From contig BCKE01000028.1 of the NCBI GenBank assembly GCA_001600495.1, forward strand, positions 39,960 through 60,062: DNA of 20,103 bases. The letters run 5' to 3'. The notes below the pieces were generated by a model. That model was not told the DNA's origin and made no database searches. It was given only the letters and a program-made list of their open reading frames with translations. This DNA is from Pilasporangium apinafurcum. Lineage: Eukaryota; Oomycota; Peronosporomycetes; Pythiales; Pythiaceae. Below are positions 3,793 through 20,103 of the stretch, in pieces (the stretch's first letter is position 1; every line of letters starts with the position of its first letter). Made by a program: the position numbers and the translations under genes.

Positions 3793-5469
3793 TTACTTTT
3801 TCCGCATGATTGCTTCGATCTCCTTCACTGTTCGAGGTACTTTAGTCATGTTTTCAGCACCGTGAGCGGTGACGATAATATCCGATTCGATACGCACGCC
3901 ACCAGTGCCACGAAAACGCGCAAGCATCTCCTGGTTAATGAATTTGGCGGTTTCTGGGTTCACCAAGACGCTATGAATTTGCGCTTCAATGAAATAGCAC
4001 CCGGGTTCAACCGTCAGCACCACGTTCTTCTCCAATGTACGCACACAGCGCAGCTTTTGCAGAATCTTCTTTTCCGAGCGCTTACTTCCCACAGGGTACC
4101 CACCGACGTCATGCACATCTAGTCCCATCAAATGTCCAAGGCCATGCGGATAGAAATACGCAGAGATTTCGTGATCCATCAGTTCATCCACAGTGCCGTT
4201 CTGGAAGAGGCCATGCTCTAGTAAATGCTGCGTCAGCACGCGATGCGACAGCAAATGCATGTCAATGTAGCTCACGCCAGGTTTGATGGCAGCAATGACA
4301 GCGTCGTGGGCCTTGAGTACACCTTCATAAATCATTCGCTGGTCGACCGTGAATACACCATTCACAGGGAACGTACAAGTGATATCCGAGGCATAGCCGT
4401 GCAACTCGGCGCCCATATCGTTGAGGAAAATGTCGCCATCATCGAGAATCTTGTCATTCGGAGCTCCTGCGTGGCCATAATGCAGCGCCGAAGCGTTATT
4501 ACCACTGCCGCAGATGCAAGTGTACGCATGCAATCGCGCACCACCATTACTGTAGCAATGATGCAAAAACGAACTTTCAGCGTGGAATTCCATCTTGCCC
4601 GCACGAATGGACTTCATAACTTCAATATGCGCCTCTGATGAAAGCGCGTTCACGAAGCGAAGTAACTCCAATTCCTTTTCGCTCTTGATCACACGGCATT
4701 CTACCAGCACTGGGTGTAGCGCCGTCAAATCGGTTGCAAAGTTCTCAATGCCTTCAAACGTAGAGGTCGTGACTGTTTCCAGACCACTGTCGGTGTTCTT
4801 TCCGTTCAGCAAATACAACTTTTTGGCCTTCAATTGATCTTGCAGGACTGTCAGCAATTCGTCCATGTAGAAGACTGCATCAACTTTGTAATGAGTCTTG
4901 AAATGCTTGAGCGACTTGCGCTCTCCGCACCATAGCTCCCATTCTTCATCGAGCCGCGGCACAAACAACACCGAGCGGTGGGTCGTCAGATCGACCAAAC
5001 CAGCGCAACCTGGCTCGCGTACCCCAAAAAGGTACTGGAAAAAACTCTCCTGGCGAAATGCGTACTGGGTGTCGGTATCATAGCGATCCACTTCCACACC
5101 ACCGTGCAGGAGCACAACTGACCCATTGCTTTTCGCTTCTGGATGATTCGTCAAGAACTTCTTGATGAGCTTCTGACGATGCTCAACGTGCATGGTATAG
5201 TCGATGGGAAAGAGTTCGTAGGTCTCCGAAGGATCCAAGGGGCCATGAGAATGATGGTCGTGGTGATGATTGGGCGCATGAGTAGCTCCTCCGTTGATGA
5301 CACTGCCGTTGTTGCTGTGGGTATTGGTGTTTCGTTGTGTTAACCGCTGTTGGCGCGCATACACGCTCGCACGGTTCTTCTGCAGCAGCGCGATAGAGGC
5401 AACTGCCGCCGCTGCTGCTGTCGCAGACAGTAATCCTTTCACTCCTGAGTTCTCTGACGTTGAGCTCAT
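3793..5469 (-). CDS. Prolidase (Xaa-Pro dipeptidase, M24 metallopeptidase)
   Basis: Prolidase cleaves Xaa-Pro dipeptides with two metal ions in a pita-bread fold. From the ATG at 5469 the protein is 558 aa, longer than the usual ~490. The five metal ligands are visible: Asp351 and Asp362 (in NDMGAELHGYASDITCTFP), His446 (PHGLGHLMGLDVHDVGGYP), Glu488 (LTVEPGCYF) and Glu528 (GGVRIESD). The spacings of 11, 84, 42 and 40 match those I recall for human prolidase (11, 83, 42, 40). The creatinase-like N-terminal domain precedes them (about 80-260). An Ala-rich hydrophobic stretch at about 12-30 followed by basic residues could be a membrane anchor or mitochondrial presequence, and a His-rich run (HHHDHHSHG) follows. 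An in-frame ATG at 5589 would add 40 residues. I prefer 5469 because the extension spans two palindromes and looks non-coding. It is intronless. Confidence 0.93.
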   Translation of the reverse strand: MSSTSENSGVKGLLSATAAAAAVASIALLQKNRASVYARQQRLTQRNTNTHSNNGSVINGGATHAPNHHHDHHSHGPLDPSETYELFPIDYTMHVEHRQKLIKKFLTNHPEAKSNGSVVLLHGGVEVDRYDTDTQYAFRQESFFQYLFGVREPGCAGLVDLTTHRSVLFVPRLDEEWELWCGERKSLKHFKTHYKVDAVFYMDELLTVLQDQLKAKKLYLLNGKNTDSGLETVTTSTFEGIENFATDLTALHPVLVECRVIKSEKELELLRFVNALSSEAHIEVMKSIRAGKMEFHAESSFLHHCYSNGGARLHAYTCICGSGNNASALHYGHAGAPNDKILDDGDIFLNDMGAELHGYASDITCTFPVNGVFTVDQRMIYEGVLKAHDAVIAAIKPGVSYIDMHLLSHRVLTQHLLEHGLFQNGTVDELMDHEISAYFYPHGLGHLMGLDVHDVGGYPVGSKRSEKKILQKLRCVRTLEKNVVLTVEPGCYFIEAQIHSVLVNPETAKFINQEMLARFRGTGGVRIESDIIVTAHGAENMTKVPRTVKEIEAIMRKK

Positions 5470-5541
5470 CCTGATGGTTGCGTTCTTTTCCCTTGCGTTT
5501 CGGTTGTTCAAGAAAAAAAGTGCTTGACATTCGGCGGTCCC

Positions 5542-5584
5542 GGTTCGAACCAAATCAGTATCTAATGAATCCGGTTCGAACCGG
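5542..5584. repeat. Pair of GGTTCGAACC palindromes upstream of prolidase
   Basis: The perfect 10-bp palindrome GGTTCGAACC occurs at 5542-5551 and again at 5573-5582. The second copy extends to the 14-bp perfect palindrome CCGGTTCGAACCGG (5571-5584). Centres are 31 bp apart, about three helical turns. They lie 73-115 bp upstream of the preferred prolidase start. Between them, on the minus strand, is TTCATTAG, a partial match to an initiator. Binding sites for a dimeric factor are a reasonable inference. The motif resembles a tRNA T-loop/B box, but no tRNA folds around it. Confidence 0.55.
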
Positions 5585-5662
5585 ATCATATTACAAGCCC
5601 TCCGTAGAAATTAAAGTGTCCTTCAGTGTACACTATTGACTGTCAATTGCGAAAGGTGATAT

Positions 5663-7679: not shown

Positions 7680-10056
7680 CTAAGGTTCTCGATGCTGTTC
7701 GTCCTGTTTAATCAGCTCAGCTGCATGAGACGCCACCATGAGCACTGATGAATGTACGTTTCCGTTCGGAATTAACGGGATGACTGACGCATCAGCTACG
7801 CGAAGATTTGGGACCCCAAACACGCGCAGGCGATTGTCCACGACGCCATCAACTTCGTTCGCAGCCATTGCAGCGCTGCCCACCCAATGCGAGTTACGAA
7901 AAACTGAGCGATAGACCCACTCGTTCAGATCTGTACAGTAGACGAAACAGTAAGTGATTTCACATCTAAAGACACAGACTCTCTATTTCTCACCATCAGT
8001 GTTATTGACAGCAGCTCCAGGTGAGATCTCCGCACCTATCACACCATTTTTCTCTTTTCAACACCAAACGCATAAACAGAGCAGCATAGTTAGCTCCTAA
8101 ACAATGAAGATCATTATAAAACTGTCGACGACAGCAGAGAAATATTTTTACCGAGTACAGCTGCAATTTCGCGGACAACATTTATACCCCACGACAATTT
8201 CCAAACATCGTCGCCTCTTAAGTGTTCGGGTTCCTCATCAGGTACCTCCGACACCACACGTGGGATAAAATTATCGTCTTCCATCGTGTTATTCTTTACA
8301 GTGAGTACGATGCGATTGCGAGCTTCTGGTGCCAGTAGTGCGACCGTGAAGACAATCTCGGTCGTGTGGTTCAGTTGAGCGCTGTTGGTCATATGTGGCT
8401 CCGACTTCCGGGGAAAAAATGTCAGTTGGATCTCTGGGATCGTCGAGCCTGGGGGGATGAGAAATGCACCAGCACTGATACCTGCAGACCCCATAAGCCC
8501 ATAGCTAGTTGGGTCTTTTACACGTTTACTTCTTGCCTGAAAATACGCCTGTAATTCCAACTCTAGGTCAGCTTCACGAGGACTGAGACTCTGATACGTC
8601 ACGCCCACAACCGGATGATCCTGCAAATTCATTCCCACGCGCGCCAGTGGTTTCTTTACTGGGATCTGCAGTTTCTCCAGTGCTTTTTGTGGACCAATAC
8701 CCGACATCATAAGCACTTTTGGGGTATTGATGGCTCCGGCAGTTAGAATGACATGACCATTCTTGGCGAGTCGGATTGTATCACGTGAACCATCGACGAA
8801 GCGCACATTCACACTTTTAGCCACTTGTGTAAGGCCGTCATTACCGTCTTTGAGATTGATTTTCTGCAGAGAATACAGTAGAAGAAGGTTAATTACTAAA
8901 TGCTCAGCCATCATACGCAAGTTTATGTTTTCTGGTGCTTGGTTTCTTCGCTTACGATGACATGTGTGTGCAGTAGGAGCTGGAAATTCTTGTATTTCCC
9001 TTCTTTATCATTCAGCACCGGTCCCAGAAACGTTTTCGCGGCGCTTTCACGGACACCATCGCGGGTATTGAAATGATAGAAACCTGCACCATACCGTCCG
9101 CCAGGTGCATTGAAATCCACTGTACGTGGCAATCCAACGTCTTCACACGCGTTGAGGAATGCAGTAGAGAGTTCGTCTTTAAACGCGGGTGGACTCGTTC
9201 GCACAAAGCCGTCAGTACTGTGAAAGGAAGAATTGGGTCCATCAAAATCTTCCATCCGCAAATAGAGTTGCAATGCTTTGGCCCAGGACCAATCCTTCAT
9301 GGCCCAGCGCTCCAGATCTGATGGTAATGCTCTTACTACAACAACATTTGGCAAATTTTACCTTAATGTAAAGCGACTAGTAGCAAATACTTCATAGATA
9401 CAATACCATAGAGCATGGCATTGTGGATACCGCATCCACCAAGCGCCTTGGCGATATTCACATCAGGATAATCCCAATGTACAGACGGCGTGTTAGCCAC
9501 ACTCGTCCAGTAAAACGGCACATCAAACGGCGTGAGGTGTTGCGTGTTGGCTGATCCAGGAATTGCATCCTATATCACACAATCAAATAGTCAATATATG
9601 ACTTCGTGCAACTAATTTTCTTTTCGTATATAAATATGCGGCTTAAATACTTACCTTACCACCCAATGCGACTTGTGAGGCGTTCCCCGCTTCAATCAGC
9701 AGCACCCGTCGCCAGGAATCTTCCGCCAAAAGCCGCGAAATCACAGTCCCTGCTGGGCCACCGCCGATCACAATCGCATCATACTGTCACAATAGAATAT
9801 CTTCATAAGTAAACTCATCTGCTAGATCAAAATAACCTTTATCTTGCATTTTGTGTACCTCAATGTCGTTAGAGAGGAGAAGATCGGCGTGACGGAAGAG
9901 CACAACCACAAGCACAATCAGCAGCACCATGAGCACAACAGCACCTACAGCAAAGAGAAGGCGCTTGCGGCGATTACTATTGACATTGTCTGCGGCAGCT
10001 GTGCGCTTCTCCGCCAGCAACAGCGCCGTCTCTTCCGTTGCGGGTGGCGACGCCAT
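7680..10056 (-). CDS. Membrane-anchored GMC-family FAD oxidoreductase, seven exons
   Basis: GMC enzymes (choline dehydrogenase, glucose/aryl-alcohol oxidases) oxidise alcohols with FAD. Exons on the minus strand are 10056-9859, 9783-9655, 9569-9407, 9335-8956, 8863-8152, 8053-7994 and 7930-7680. Introns are 75, 85, 71, 92, 98 and 63 bp with consistent phases; the protein is 630 aa. The ATG at 10056 has a good context (GCCCATGGCG). Residues 33-54 form one strong transmembrane segment preceded by NRRKR, so a type II anchor with the enzyme in the secretory lumen or outside is inferred. The FAD Rossmann motif is YDAIVIGGGPAG (67-78), and the GMC signature region is ALGGCGIHNAMLYVRA (151-166). The second signature lies near GAINTPKVLMMSGIG. 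The candidate catalytic pair is His562 (NSHWVGS) and Asn605 (PNGNVHSS), 43 apart as in the family. Substrate cannot be told. It converges on the secreted-protein gene. Confidence 0.9.
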
Positions 10057-11027: not shown

Positions 11028-11102
11028 CTCATTTACATTCTCCAAGTTGACTGCAAGCGCCCTCATCCCGCTTCCTCTCAACCAGCTAGATCATCCATCT
11101 TA
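11028..11102 (+). promoter_or_regulatory. Initiator-like core promoter and leader of alpha-tubulin copy 1
   Basis: CTCATTTA at 11028-11035 partly matches the oomycete initiator YTCATTYY, with the inferred start at A11031 and a 72-nt leader. The block 11037-11073 (ATTCTCCAAGTTGACTGC onward) is identical over 37 bp to 19203-19167 in front of copy 2, which marks it as a duplicated or conserved promoter/leader element. The ATG at 11103 follows. Confidence 0.5.
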
Positions 11103-12458
11103 ATGCGTGAAATTCTTTCCATCCACTTAGGCCAGGGCGGCATCCAAGTCGGCAACTCGTGCTGGGAACTATACTGCCTTGAACACGGTATCCAACCTGA
11201 TGGTCAAATCCCTAACGACTCGATCGCCAGCGGTGATGATGCCTTTTCTACATTCTTCTCCGAAAATGGACAAGGAAAACATGTTCCCCGCGCAGTGTTT
11301 GTTGACTTAGAGCCCACAGTGTGTGATGAAGTCCGCACTGGCACCTACCGTCAACTCTACCACCCAGAACAAATCATCTCGGGAAAGGAAGATGCTGCCA
11401 ACAACTATGCACGTGGTCACTACACCATCGGTAAGGAAGTGGTTGACTTGGTACTTGATCGTGTACGCAAGTTGGCAGACAACTGCACGGGACTCCAAGG
11501 TTTCATGGTATTCAACGCAGTTGGTGGTGGTACTGGTTCGGGTCTTGGTTCGCTATTGCTTGAGCGATTGTCTGTTGACTATGGTCGCAAGAGTAAATTG
11601 GGGTTCACGATCTATCCATCGCCTCAAGTATCATCTGCTGTGGTGGAACCATATAACTCGGTGTTGTCTACTCACTCGCTTTTGGAACACACTGATGTGG
11701 CAGTGATGTTGGACAATGAAGCTATTTACGACATTTGTCGTCGCTCTCTTGATATTGAGCGTCCAACATACACCAACTTGAATCGTTTGATCGCTCAAGT
11801 GATTTCTTCTTTGACGACATCGTTACGTTTCGATGGTTCATTGAACGTCGATATCACGGAGTTCCAGACAAACTTGGTACCATACCCACGTATCCACTTC
11901 ATGTTGAGCTCGTATGCTCCTGTGATTTCTGCAGAGAAGGCATATCATGAACAATTGACTGTTGCGGAAATCACAAACAGTGCATTTGAACCAGCATCGA
12001 TGATGGCCAAGTGTGATCCACGTCATGGGAAGTACATGGCTACGTGTTTGATGTACCGTGGTGATGTTGTTCCAAAGGATGTGAATGCTGCTGTGGCTAC
12101 GATCAAGACGAAGCGTACGATCCAGTTTGTGGACTGGTGTCCTACTGGTTTCAAGTGTGGTATCAATTACCAACCACCTACGGTGGTTCCAGGTGGTGAT
12201 CTTGCTCGTGTTCAGCGTGCAGTGTGTATGATCTCTAACACGAGTGCTATCGCTGAAGTGTTTTCTCGCATCGATCACAAGTTCGATTTGATGTATGCGA
12301 AGCGTGCATTCGTTCACTGGTATGTTGGTGAAGGTATGGAAGAAGGTGAGTTTTCTGAAGCACGTGAAGATTTGGCTGCATTGGAGAAGGATTATGAAGA
12401 AGTGAGTGCTGAGACTGCGGAGGGTGAAGGTGAAGAAGAGTTTGGTGAAGAATACTAG
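11103..12458 (+). CDS. Alpha-tubulin copy 1 (Lys40-less)
   Basis: Alpha-tubulin pairs with beta-tubulin to form microtubules. The frame from the ATG at 11103 encodes 451 aa, matching the family from the start [18 protein letters not shown]. The GTP-binding motif GGGTGSG lies near residue 142. The C-terminal tail is acidic and ends in EEFGEEY, a Tyr-terminated tail suited to the detyrosination cycle. It is intronless. The lumenal loop reads [12 protein letters not shown], so position 40 is Ser rather than Lys, and the loop is one residue shorter than in copy 2; the acetylation site is therefore absent. Another change nearby is ENGQGKH against ETGAGKH. From about codon 71 onward the gene appears nucleotide-identical to copy 2 until the last codon. 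The open frame extends 55 codons upstream, but that extension has no tubulin homology. The stop is TAG. Confidence 0.98.
11313..12454 (+). repeat. Inverted repeat arm A: homogenised body of alpha-tubulin copy 1
   Basis: This 1142-bp stretch appears identical to the reverse complement of 17775-18916. I compared several segments directly. In addition, two off-frame translations of the block (127 and 159 codons) are the same in both copies, which would be disrupted by synonymous changes. The only difference seen is an N at 18614. Differences start abruptly on the 5' side (last one at 11310-11312, GAG against GAA) and resume at the final Tyr codon (TAC against TAT). The arms have equal length, so there are no indels. 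Confidence 0.9.
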
Positions 12459-16133: not shown

Positions 16134-17393
16134 ATGCTCAAGCACTCGCCTAGTAGCAACAGCAGTACGGTGCCATCCTCTGCGACATCCTCCCCATCAT
16201 CCATGGCTCATCGCGGTGCTATGGTCATGCCACTCAACATGCACGCTATCTCCTCTAGTGTAGAGGACGAATACATGCGAAGCCCCAGTGCCAGTGCCAT
16301 TCCCATGTCCGCTCGTGTGGCAACCCCGAAGAAAAATGTGATCTCATTGTCACCAGCGTGCAACTTTGAAGCCTTCAGCCACCACTTTCACCTACCACTT
16401 AAAGCTGCGGCGGAAAAGTTTGGTGTCCGTGCCACGGCGTTCAAGAAGCGTTGCCGTGCGATCGGCATCCGCCACTGGCCATATCGTAAGGTACGCAGTC
16501 TCAAGCGCTCGCTCCAGGAGCTAAACCGATGCAAGGAGCAAGGACAACTCAATGAGAAGCAGCAATATCAATACACGACTTTCAAAAAACAATTGGACAA
16601 ACTTATGTCCCCGGAGACCTATGGTGCGTATCATATCCATGTTATGACTTGAGATTAAATGATTTGAATCTGACGATGCTGTTCAACTACAATTTTGTAG
16701 GTATCGATCCCTCTGGTCGCATCACGCAGCATCACTTTGAGGAAGACTACAGTGATGAATCTGATGATGATTCTTATGACTCGCAAAGCCCGCGTGTCGG
16801 TGGTGTCACGTTTACGGATTGCAGCATCAGTCCCGTGGATAGCGATAAGACCTTTGGCGATTTCTCCACGCCGACCCACCTTCGCTCATTTCGACGACAG
16901 CAAATGGTGTGTTTTATTATAAGTACTTCTCAAGATCGATTTCTCTATTAACGTTTTTATGCTTGACTATATGTAGAGCTACTTGCCTTCGGCTCATTTA
17001 AACAAACCCATTCATTCTCAGTTCAATGCCACGGAGCTCCCAAGCGTCTCCATTCGCCTTGGCTCAAAAGAAGCGCTAAATGCTTACTGCAATAAGTACC
17101 AATTTGGGGCGTACGACCATTATCTCCATGAGGCAGAGAAGCAGGCAGCGCTGATGCGGCCGCCGCTTCACACAGACAGTGGCTGTGATAACCAAATAGC
17201 CGATCACCCGCCCAGCGGTTGCTCACTGATGGGGTCACATCATGACTTTATGCCTACCACAGAGGATGTACGGACGTTCAATGAAGCCGAAGAAGAGTTT
17301 TCGGATCATCCGACCACTTTGGACTACAGCAGTGAGCGGTTCTTCGACGATGTGTTCCTGCAGATCTCCCCAGACTATGGCTGTCTCGTGTAA
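16134..17393 (+). CDS. RWP-RK domain transcription factor, three exons
   Basis: RWP-RK proteins are DNA-binding regulators found in plants, algae and oomycetes. Exons 16134-16623, 16701-16906 and 16977-17393 join in phase through introns of 77 and 70 bp to give 370 aa. The N-terminal ~75 residues are Ser/Pro-rich. The domain lies at about 78-125: FHLPLKAAAEKFGVRATAFK then KRCRAIGIRHWPYRKVRSLK. The helix-turn-helix parts match the family, but the signature reads HWPYRK where RWPxRK is expected, so the first Arg is His. A short coiled-coil-like segment (residues 125-155) follows. Exon 2 encodes an acidic stretch EEDYSDESDDDSYDS, a possible activation region. The C-terminal exon is acidic and aromatic in places (SSERFFDDVFLQI). 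Each intron's read-through frame stops early, which supports the splice model. Target genes are unknown. Confidence 0.92.
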
Positions 17394-17770: not shown

Positions 17771-19129
<1,359 letters not shown>

Positions 19130-19206
19130 CTTGAGAGAAGAAGATAGTCTTGAGACGGTCGAGAGAAAGCGGGATGAGGGCGCTTGCAGTCAACTTGGAG
19201 AATGAG
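19130..19206 (-). promoter_or_regulatory. Initiator-like core promoter and leader of alpha-tubulin copy 2
   Basis: On the minus strand CTCATTCT (19206-19199) fits the oomycete initiator YTCATTYY exactly, with the inferred start at 19203 and a 73-74-nt leader. The 37 bp from 19203 to 19167 are identical to the leader of copy 1 (11037-11073). Sequence closer to the ATG has diverged. Confidence 0.55.
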
Positions 19207-20007
19207 CGCAGGTTTTTCTCCCAACCAAACAGTTGAAAGAGGGTGTGGAGATGGTCAGAATGGGGATCGGACTCAGAACATCAGGCCAAGAACAAGCATA
19301 AAATGTCGATTTTTAGGTTAATTTATAGCACTTTCATGCGGATTTTCAGGTCAAAAAGTTCAAAGTTTTGAAATGAGTGAAGGTTGGTCCAACACCTCAT
19401 GCTCTGATCTCCATGCAAACCAAGATGCAATATTTCTGAGCTGCGAAATAAGAAAATGTGTTCACATGGACCAATAGCAACTCTTTTATTAGATTTTCAT
19501 GCCGATGAGCCTGCTGCTACTGATCAGTGATACATTATGGACGACAATGCAGTACCACGTATTCACTTTTTTTACATGGGGTTATGACGATCTATCATAC
19601 CAACACGCGCATTGCAGCAGCACTGCAAATAAGGCATCAATAGCATACACCGAGAGTCTCTTGATGGCTAAAGTTCAGATTGGTCATTATAACAATTATT
19701 AAGCATTATTTTTAAATTGGACGGATATAGATGAAATGACTAGGAATGGTCCAGATATTCGTCTTTCTTAGAACACATTCTCTTCCTGTCAATACACTGA
19801 GTAGTCTCAAAATCCAACAAAAGACACCACAATAACAAATGAAAATTAATCGCATGCATTGATGTTGCCTTACACACACAAAACACTCTTCTGTTCAAGT
19901 GCCTTCCAAGCCTACCAGCTCGAAAAGAATCACTTTACATAGGTTGAATCGATCGTTGTTTCATGAGGAACAACGTTGGCAGAAGCATAAAGATCTGCTT
20001 CTAGTCC
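19207..20007. other. Intergenic region between alpha-tubulin copies 2 and 3
   Basis: About 800 bp separate copy 2's initiator from the stop codon of copy 3, both on the minus strand. The region should contain copy 2's upstream promoter and copy 3's 3' flank. A 67-codon + strand frame at 19499-19702 has no family features. I see no RNA gene or repeat array. Confidence 0.4.
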
Positions 20008-20103
20008 TTAGTATTCTTCACCAAACTCTTCTTCACCTTCACCCTCCGCAGTCTCAGCACTCACTTCTTCATAATCCTTCTCCAATGCAGCCAAATCTTC
20101 ACG
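20008..20103 (-). CDS. Alpha-tubulin copy 3, C-terminal fragment (cut by window edge)
   Basis: The minus-strand frame encodes the last 31 residues of alpha-tubulin ([17 protein letters not shown] onward, ending FGEEY) and stops with TAA at 20010-20008. All 93 coding bases are identical to copy 1, including the final TAC codon. Copy 2 differs only in that last codon (TAT). It is tandem with copy 2, about 880 bp upstream of copy 2's start codon. Whether the rest of the gene is intact, and whether it has Lys40, cannot be seen. Confidence 0.95.

Follow-up and report, generated by a model that had tools for sequence, protein, structure and literature searches.

A probable old alpha-tubulin isotype without Lys40, nearly identical in its body to a Lys40-bearing neighbour, in the oomycete Pilasporangium apinafurcum

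Lys40 of alpha-tubulin is an acetylation site in the microtubule lumen and is linked to stable, long-lived and axonemal microtubules. Genomes that mix isotypes with and without this residue are already known, and in C. elegans, according to the accessible part of one report, MEC-12 alone of nine alpha-tubulins carries Lys40 (PMC8987236). For the doublet microtubules of Tetrahymena, the available portion of another study reports that the Lys40 loop is ordered where it touches inner proteins, e.g. RIB72A/B and CFAP52, and that acetylation matters most where inner proteins are scarce (PMC11006419). The role of Lys40 acetylation is nevertheless difficult to single out, given the many sites at which isotypes tend to differ. 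In work on paralogs, as far as the accessible text goes, islands of divergence that persist under gene conversion are taken as a possible hint of selection, the neutral alternative being that conversion is suppressed there (PMC3728101). Of added interest here is that the Lys40 region is nearly the sole coding difference between two neighbouring alpha-tubulin genes.

The window, i.e. the whole 20,103-nt stretch that was analysed (C28:39960-60062 of an assembly of 136 contigs and 36.5 Mb), contains two alpha-tubulin genes and the end of a third, which are listed together with other genes of the window in Table 1. Copy 1 encodes a full-length protein of the alpha type (Pfam Tubulin, 203.7 bits; Tubulin_C, 171.8 bits), both domains are present in the copy 2 protein as well, and the PDB chains nearest to copy 1 are alpha-tubulins; the open frame of copy 1 continues 5' of the chosen start, to 10938. 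The initial annotation of this DNA had reported that copy 1 lacks Lys40 while copy 2 keeps it, and both statements can be read directly from the codons. Its serine at position 40 is likewise correct by plain numbering, as is the loss of one residue from the loop (CDS of 1356 vs. 1359 nt), and with no lysine there copy 1 should indeed not be acetylatable at this position. The interval that it gave for the loop, 11216-11240, lies inside the loop but covers only its later part. The gap falls opposite Lys40 itself in the MAFFT alignment and in the alignment to PDB chain 6u42, and at codon 43 in the DNA alignment of the two copies; whichever placement is used, Lys40 is absent from copy 1. An AlphaFold2 model made from a six-sequence alignment had a mean pLDDT of 32.7 and was left unused. 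Upstream, the copies share a short leader stretch, beyond which no alignable DNA was found between them. The sequence GCTCATTCTCCAAGTT (19192-19207, minus strand), 5' of copy 2, is one mismatch from what we take to be the oomycete core-promoter consensus; this match is weak, at least one being found in 40 of 100 shuffles.

Table 1. Coordinates of alpha-tubulin genes, their parts and other genes of the window (window positions unless a contig is named).
Feature	Position	Strand	Remarks
Copy 1 alpha-tubulin CDS	11103..12458	+	451 aa, without Lys40; start set by homology
Copy 1 upstream leader stretch	11036..11071	+	36 nt, same in copies 1 and 2
Copy 1 lumenal loop	11205..11240	+	12 residues; codon 40 = TCG (Ser), 11220-11222
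Copy 1 divergent island	11141..11312	+	first to last pre-body difference from copy 2; 38 nt differences
Copy 1 body	11313..12454	+	1142 nt without a difference from copy 2, apart from one N there
Copy 2 alpha-tubulin CDS	17771..19129	-	452 aa, with Lys40; N at 18614
Copy 2 upstream leader stretch	19169..19204	-	36 nt, same in copies 1 and 2
Copy 2 lumenal loop	18989..19027	-	13 residues; Lys40 codon AAG, 19010-19012
Third alpha-tubulin copy, C-terminal end	20008..20103	-	cut by window edge and N gap
L003, alpha-tubulin with Lys40	C11:738878-740236		near contig end
L004, alpha-tubulin with Lys40	C94:76052-77278		cut by contig end
RWP-RK domain protein	16134-16652	+	between the tubulins; 64.1 bits; frames to 17393 resemble later exons
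Aminopeptidase P-like protein	3793-5589	-	Pfam Peptidase_M24 and AMP_N
GMC oxidoreductase, partial	8114-8920	-	40.9 bits; probably more exons upstream

The 40 nucleotide differences found in the codon alignment of copies 1 and 2 are very unevenly placed, with 38 inside the first 71 codons and the other two in the last four nucleotides of the CDS, where they affect the Tyr and stop codons. Codons 1-13 contain a single difference, and codons 14-70 contain 36 in 168 nt, spread over 29 codons of which 20 are changed synonymously and 9 non-synonymously (with the gap at codon 43). All amino-acid differences lie within residues 19-58 and amount to eight substitutions when the gap is placed at Lys40 in the protein alignment, or nine when it is placed at codon 43, plus one missing residue. 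The Nei-Gojobori dS between the copies is 1.45 over codons 14-70, a rough value from only 56 codons, and 0.004 over codons 71-445, where a single site, in codon 71, accounts for it; the synonymous sites of codons 14-70 are thus near saturation. When compared with L003, a Lys40-bearing gene on another contig, copy 2 shows a dS of 1.1 for codons 14-70 and 1.2 for codons 71-445, and copy 1 shows 2.2 and 1.2, respectively. Because the two copies are about as diverged from each other in the island as either is from L003, with an undiverged body, the probable reading is that copy 1 is an old isotype, its body replaced through gene conversion and its Lys40 region left separate. Moreover, when copies 1 and 2 are compared together with L003, 235 sites are polymorphic; the two copies agree at 196 of them, and one run of such agreement, 121 sites long, was reached in none of 10000 shuffles. 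The pair therefore has the form left by gene conversion, the same body adjoining a strongly diverged stretch, to which assembly collapse may contribute. The proposal in the initial annotation of an isotype specialised only at its N-terminus holds in that the differences are confined there, but this confinement is probably what remained after gene conversion of the body.

Copy 2 and the two further alpha-tubulins of the genome, L003 on C11 and L004 on C94, all carry Lys40, and copy 1 does not. L003 and L004 are identical at 1229 of 1229 comparable CDS nucleotides and across a 90-nt leader, with unlike DNA further upstream, which may reflect conversion or recent duplication. Next to copy 3 lies a gap of 6685 N (G000:C28:60063-66747), past which its probable start is found (span G000:C28:60063-66833); its first 86 CDS nucleotides equal those of copy 2. 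Identity within the family thus need not end before codon 71: it extends through the N-terminus in L003 and L004, and it covers these 86 nt in copies 2 and 3. The exact identity of the bodies of copies 1 and 2 could in part be assembly collapse, which is conceivable because of the N at 18614 and the large gap adjoining.

Comparison of the loop across related oomycetes, which the initial annotation had suggested as a check, turned up similar lysine-free loops. A protein search with residues 1-75 of copy 1 gave 2878 hits and a profile search from six proteins lacking Lys40, in which scoring was limited to candidates sharing most words, gave 7959; the best 120 of 2878 and the best 120 of 7959 were used, and both searches matched tubulin. 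The protein database, being clustered at 90% identity, hides many isotypes, so that absence from these lists means little. Among the matches listed (copies 1 and 2 included), 38 of 161 readable loops departed from the 14-residue Lys40 form. Loops of 13 residues, as counted from Gln35, made up 15 of the 161, namely 14 oomycete rows, copy 1 among them, and one fungal record. Lysine is present in the fungal loop and in none of the 14 oomycete ones listed, 13 of which have Ile36 and 13 Ser40. Apart from copy 1, these rows come from Phytophthora infestans, Phytophthora ramorum, Phytophthora cactorum, Phytophthora cinnamomi, Phytophthora pseudosyringae, Phytophthora capsici and Bremia lactucae, and the QIPNDSIA of the copy 1 loop is matched exactly in Phytophthora pseudosyringae. 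Twelve-residue loops without Lys40 occur in Saprolegnia diclina and in Phytophthora oleae, the latter with a lysine at position 35. Loop residues vary strongly among species, and Phytophthora cactorum has a Lys40-bearing protein (P0111) beside the form that lacks it. Five Phytophthora and Bremia alpha-tubulins without Lys40 (P0093, P0097, P0104, P0106, P0116) are 89-96% identical overall to copy 1 and have a lysine-free 13-residue loop like that of copy 1, mostly with Ile36 and Ser40; their bodies are unlike the copy 1 body, as expected across species. The two from Bremia lactucae, CCR75_008879 (P0106) and CCR75_008880 (P0097), have consecutive locus numbers and are perhaps neighbours. The oomycete proteins lacking Lys40 are already public, under plain tubulin names; separately, the Phytophthora nicotianae alpha-tubulin P0119 bears the source name 'DIS3 exonuclease 2', likely a naming error. 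Thus the isotype noted initially for this organism does exist in its genome, but the trait is shared with other oomycetes.

Trees were computed from 19 rows, i.e. copy 1, copy 2, L003 and 16 chosen proteins, with the exclusion of truncated or oddly modelled rows lacking Lys40 (P0094, P0095, P0096, P0102, P0105, P0112, P0113) and of many Lys40-bearing rows, including P0108, P0110 and P0111. In the tree of residues 1-71 a single branch separates the nine rows lacking Lys40 from the others (84/80; 82% of 200 bootstrap trees). The same rows need three changes in the body tree and two in the tree made without the loop columns, a single change being sufficient in 16% of 200 bootstrap trees. As the grouping is lost without the loop columns, a reading of single origin depends on the loop. 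In the residues outside it, copy 1 is nearest to a Lys40-bearing Globisporangium protein (56 of 58 residues), followed by copy 2 (55 of 58).

A profile search of the genome with Pfam Acetyltransf_16 (Mec-17) matched two exons on C62, and the predicted four-exon acetyltransferase, for which splice sites were chosen by hand, has 179 residues and scores 154.1 bits against PF05301 (cut-off 27). At the gene level, an acetyltransferase of this family is therefore present as a prediction. The same profile had no match in 14 control genomes, a control of little weight. Among the matches listed, its best relatives, 49-59% identical, are PF05301 proteins of Globisporangium, Phytophthora, Plasmopara, Lagenidium, Nothophytophthora and Pythium, and the Saprolegnia protein is 45% identical; Bremia and Hyaloperonospora are absent among the best 120 of 231 hits, an absence that proves nothing. 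None of the named oomycete acetyltransferases among these matches is near-identical, and a tree of 18 acetyltransferases gave no placement of this genome, whose nearest protein relatives are from oomycetes. Since the enzyme is encoded, Lys40 acetylation likely occurs in Pilasporangium apinafurcum, and copy 1 would escape it.

Several other explanations have to be weighed against an old isotype maintained by selection. Loss of Lys40 may have been nearly neutral, with the microtubules tolerating it, the loop drifting and the island persisting only because its divergence and indel now hinder conversion there, an account that we regard as unlikely, though well worth keeping in view. The very different loop residues of different species speak for it, as does suppressed conversion, the neutral alternative mentioned above; on the other hand, lysine was regained in none of the 14 oomycete loops of 13 residues among the matches listed, and the island has a purifying pattern, neither of which is decisive. 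About equally doubtful is an independent loss of Lys40 in this lineage, with convergence on a Phytophthora-like loop. It would agree with the two changes in the tree without loop columns, where a single change has little bootstrap backing, and with how common loops other than the 14-residue Lys40 form are among the matches listed. However, the common length, the nearly constant Ile36 and Ser40 and the exact match in Phytophthora pseudosyringae are not easily reconciled with convergence, and the high dS of the island speaks for age.

Finally, the identity of the bodies may be a product of assembly, the reads of one copy filling both, so that the real proteins may differ elsewhere. The N in copy 2, the gap at copy 3 and the position of L003 and L004 close to contig ends all point that way; even so, we consider this quite unlikely, and because each island is continuous with its own distinct upstream DNA, the Lys40 difference would stand regardless.

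The remaining reading, that copy 1 is a functional, old isotype lacking Lys40, with an overwritten body and a Lys40 region kept by selection, is one to which we give an even chance on the present sequence evidence. It is consistent with an island whose frame stays open and in which synonymous codon changes outnumber non-synonymous ones, 20 vs. 9; the variation of loop residues among species also fits relaxed constraint. Under this reading, gene conversion with the Lys40-bearing neighbour would overwrite the body of copy 1, and selection would purge those conversions that would transfer the Lys40 loop. Tubulin from copy 1 would lower the Lys40 acetylation of the microtubules that it joins, and its shortened, lysine-free loop would alter lumenal-loop contacts. 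Taken together, the inner-protein contacts and the general link of Lys40 to stability suggest that copy 1 would go to dynamic microtubules, most likely those of the cytoplasm and the spindle in the growing phase, with the Lys40-bearing genes serving the flagellum; this would be the hyphal vs. flagellar division of labour that the initial annotation put forward as a possibility. More broadly, it is possible, although we hold it with less than even confidence, that oomycetes retain a dedicated alpha-tubulin that is non-acetylatable in the lumen, selection holding an island of about 170 nt while conversion erases nearly all other coding differences. If selection does hold the island, evolution would have marked the lumenal loop as the important part, and the division of labour would be testable in zoospore-forming oomycetes. 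The two proteins differ only within residues 19-58 and the enzyme is encoded; on this reading, the pair would constitute a natural isotype swap isolating the role of Lys40 and its loop.

In the parts of the literature that were searched, mostly papers outside subscription access (including PMC3471859, PMC9294176 and PMC6647872), no description of an oomycete isotype lacking Lys40 was found. Of the known systems, C. elegans resembles Pilasporangium apinafurcum in having alpha-tubulins with and without Lys40 and the acetyltransferase in one genome, but the available portion of that report describes no pair identical outside the Lys40 region (PMC8987236), and here there is such a pair. Within the limits of the accessible accounts, the paralogs GOT1p1 and GOT1p2 of Tigriopus resemble copies 1 and 2 in forming a mosaic of low and high divergence (PMC3728101), although GOT1 is another gene in which no functional site could be named, whereas the island described here holds a known modification site. 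The beta-tubulin paralogs of Leishmania, as far as the accessible text describes them, undergo concerted evolution and have homogenised copies as seen here (PMC1533823), but they are beta- and not alpha-tubulins.
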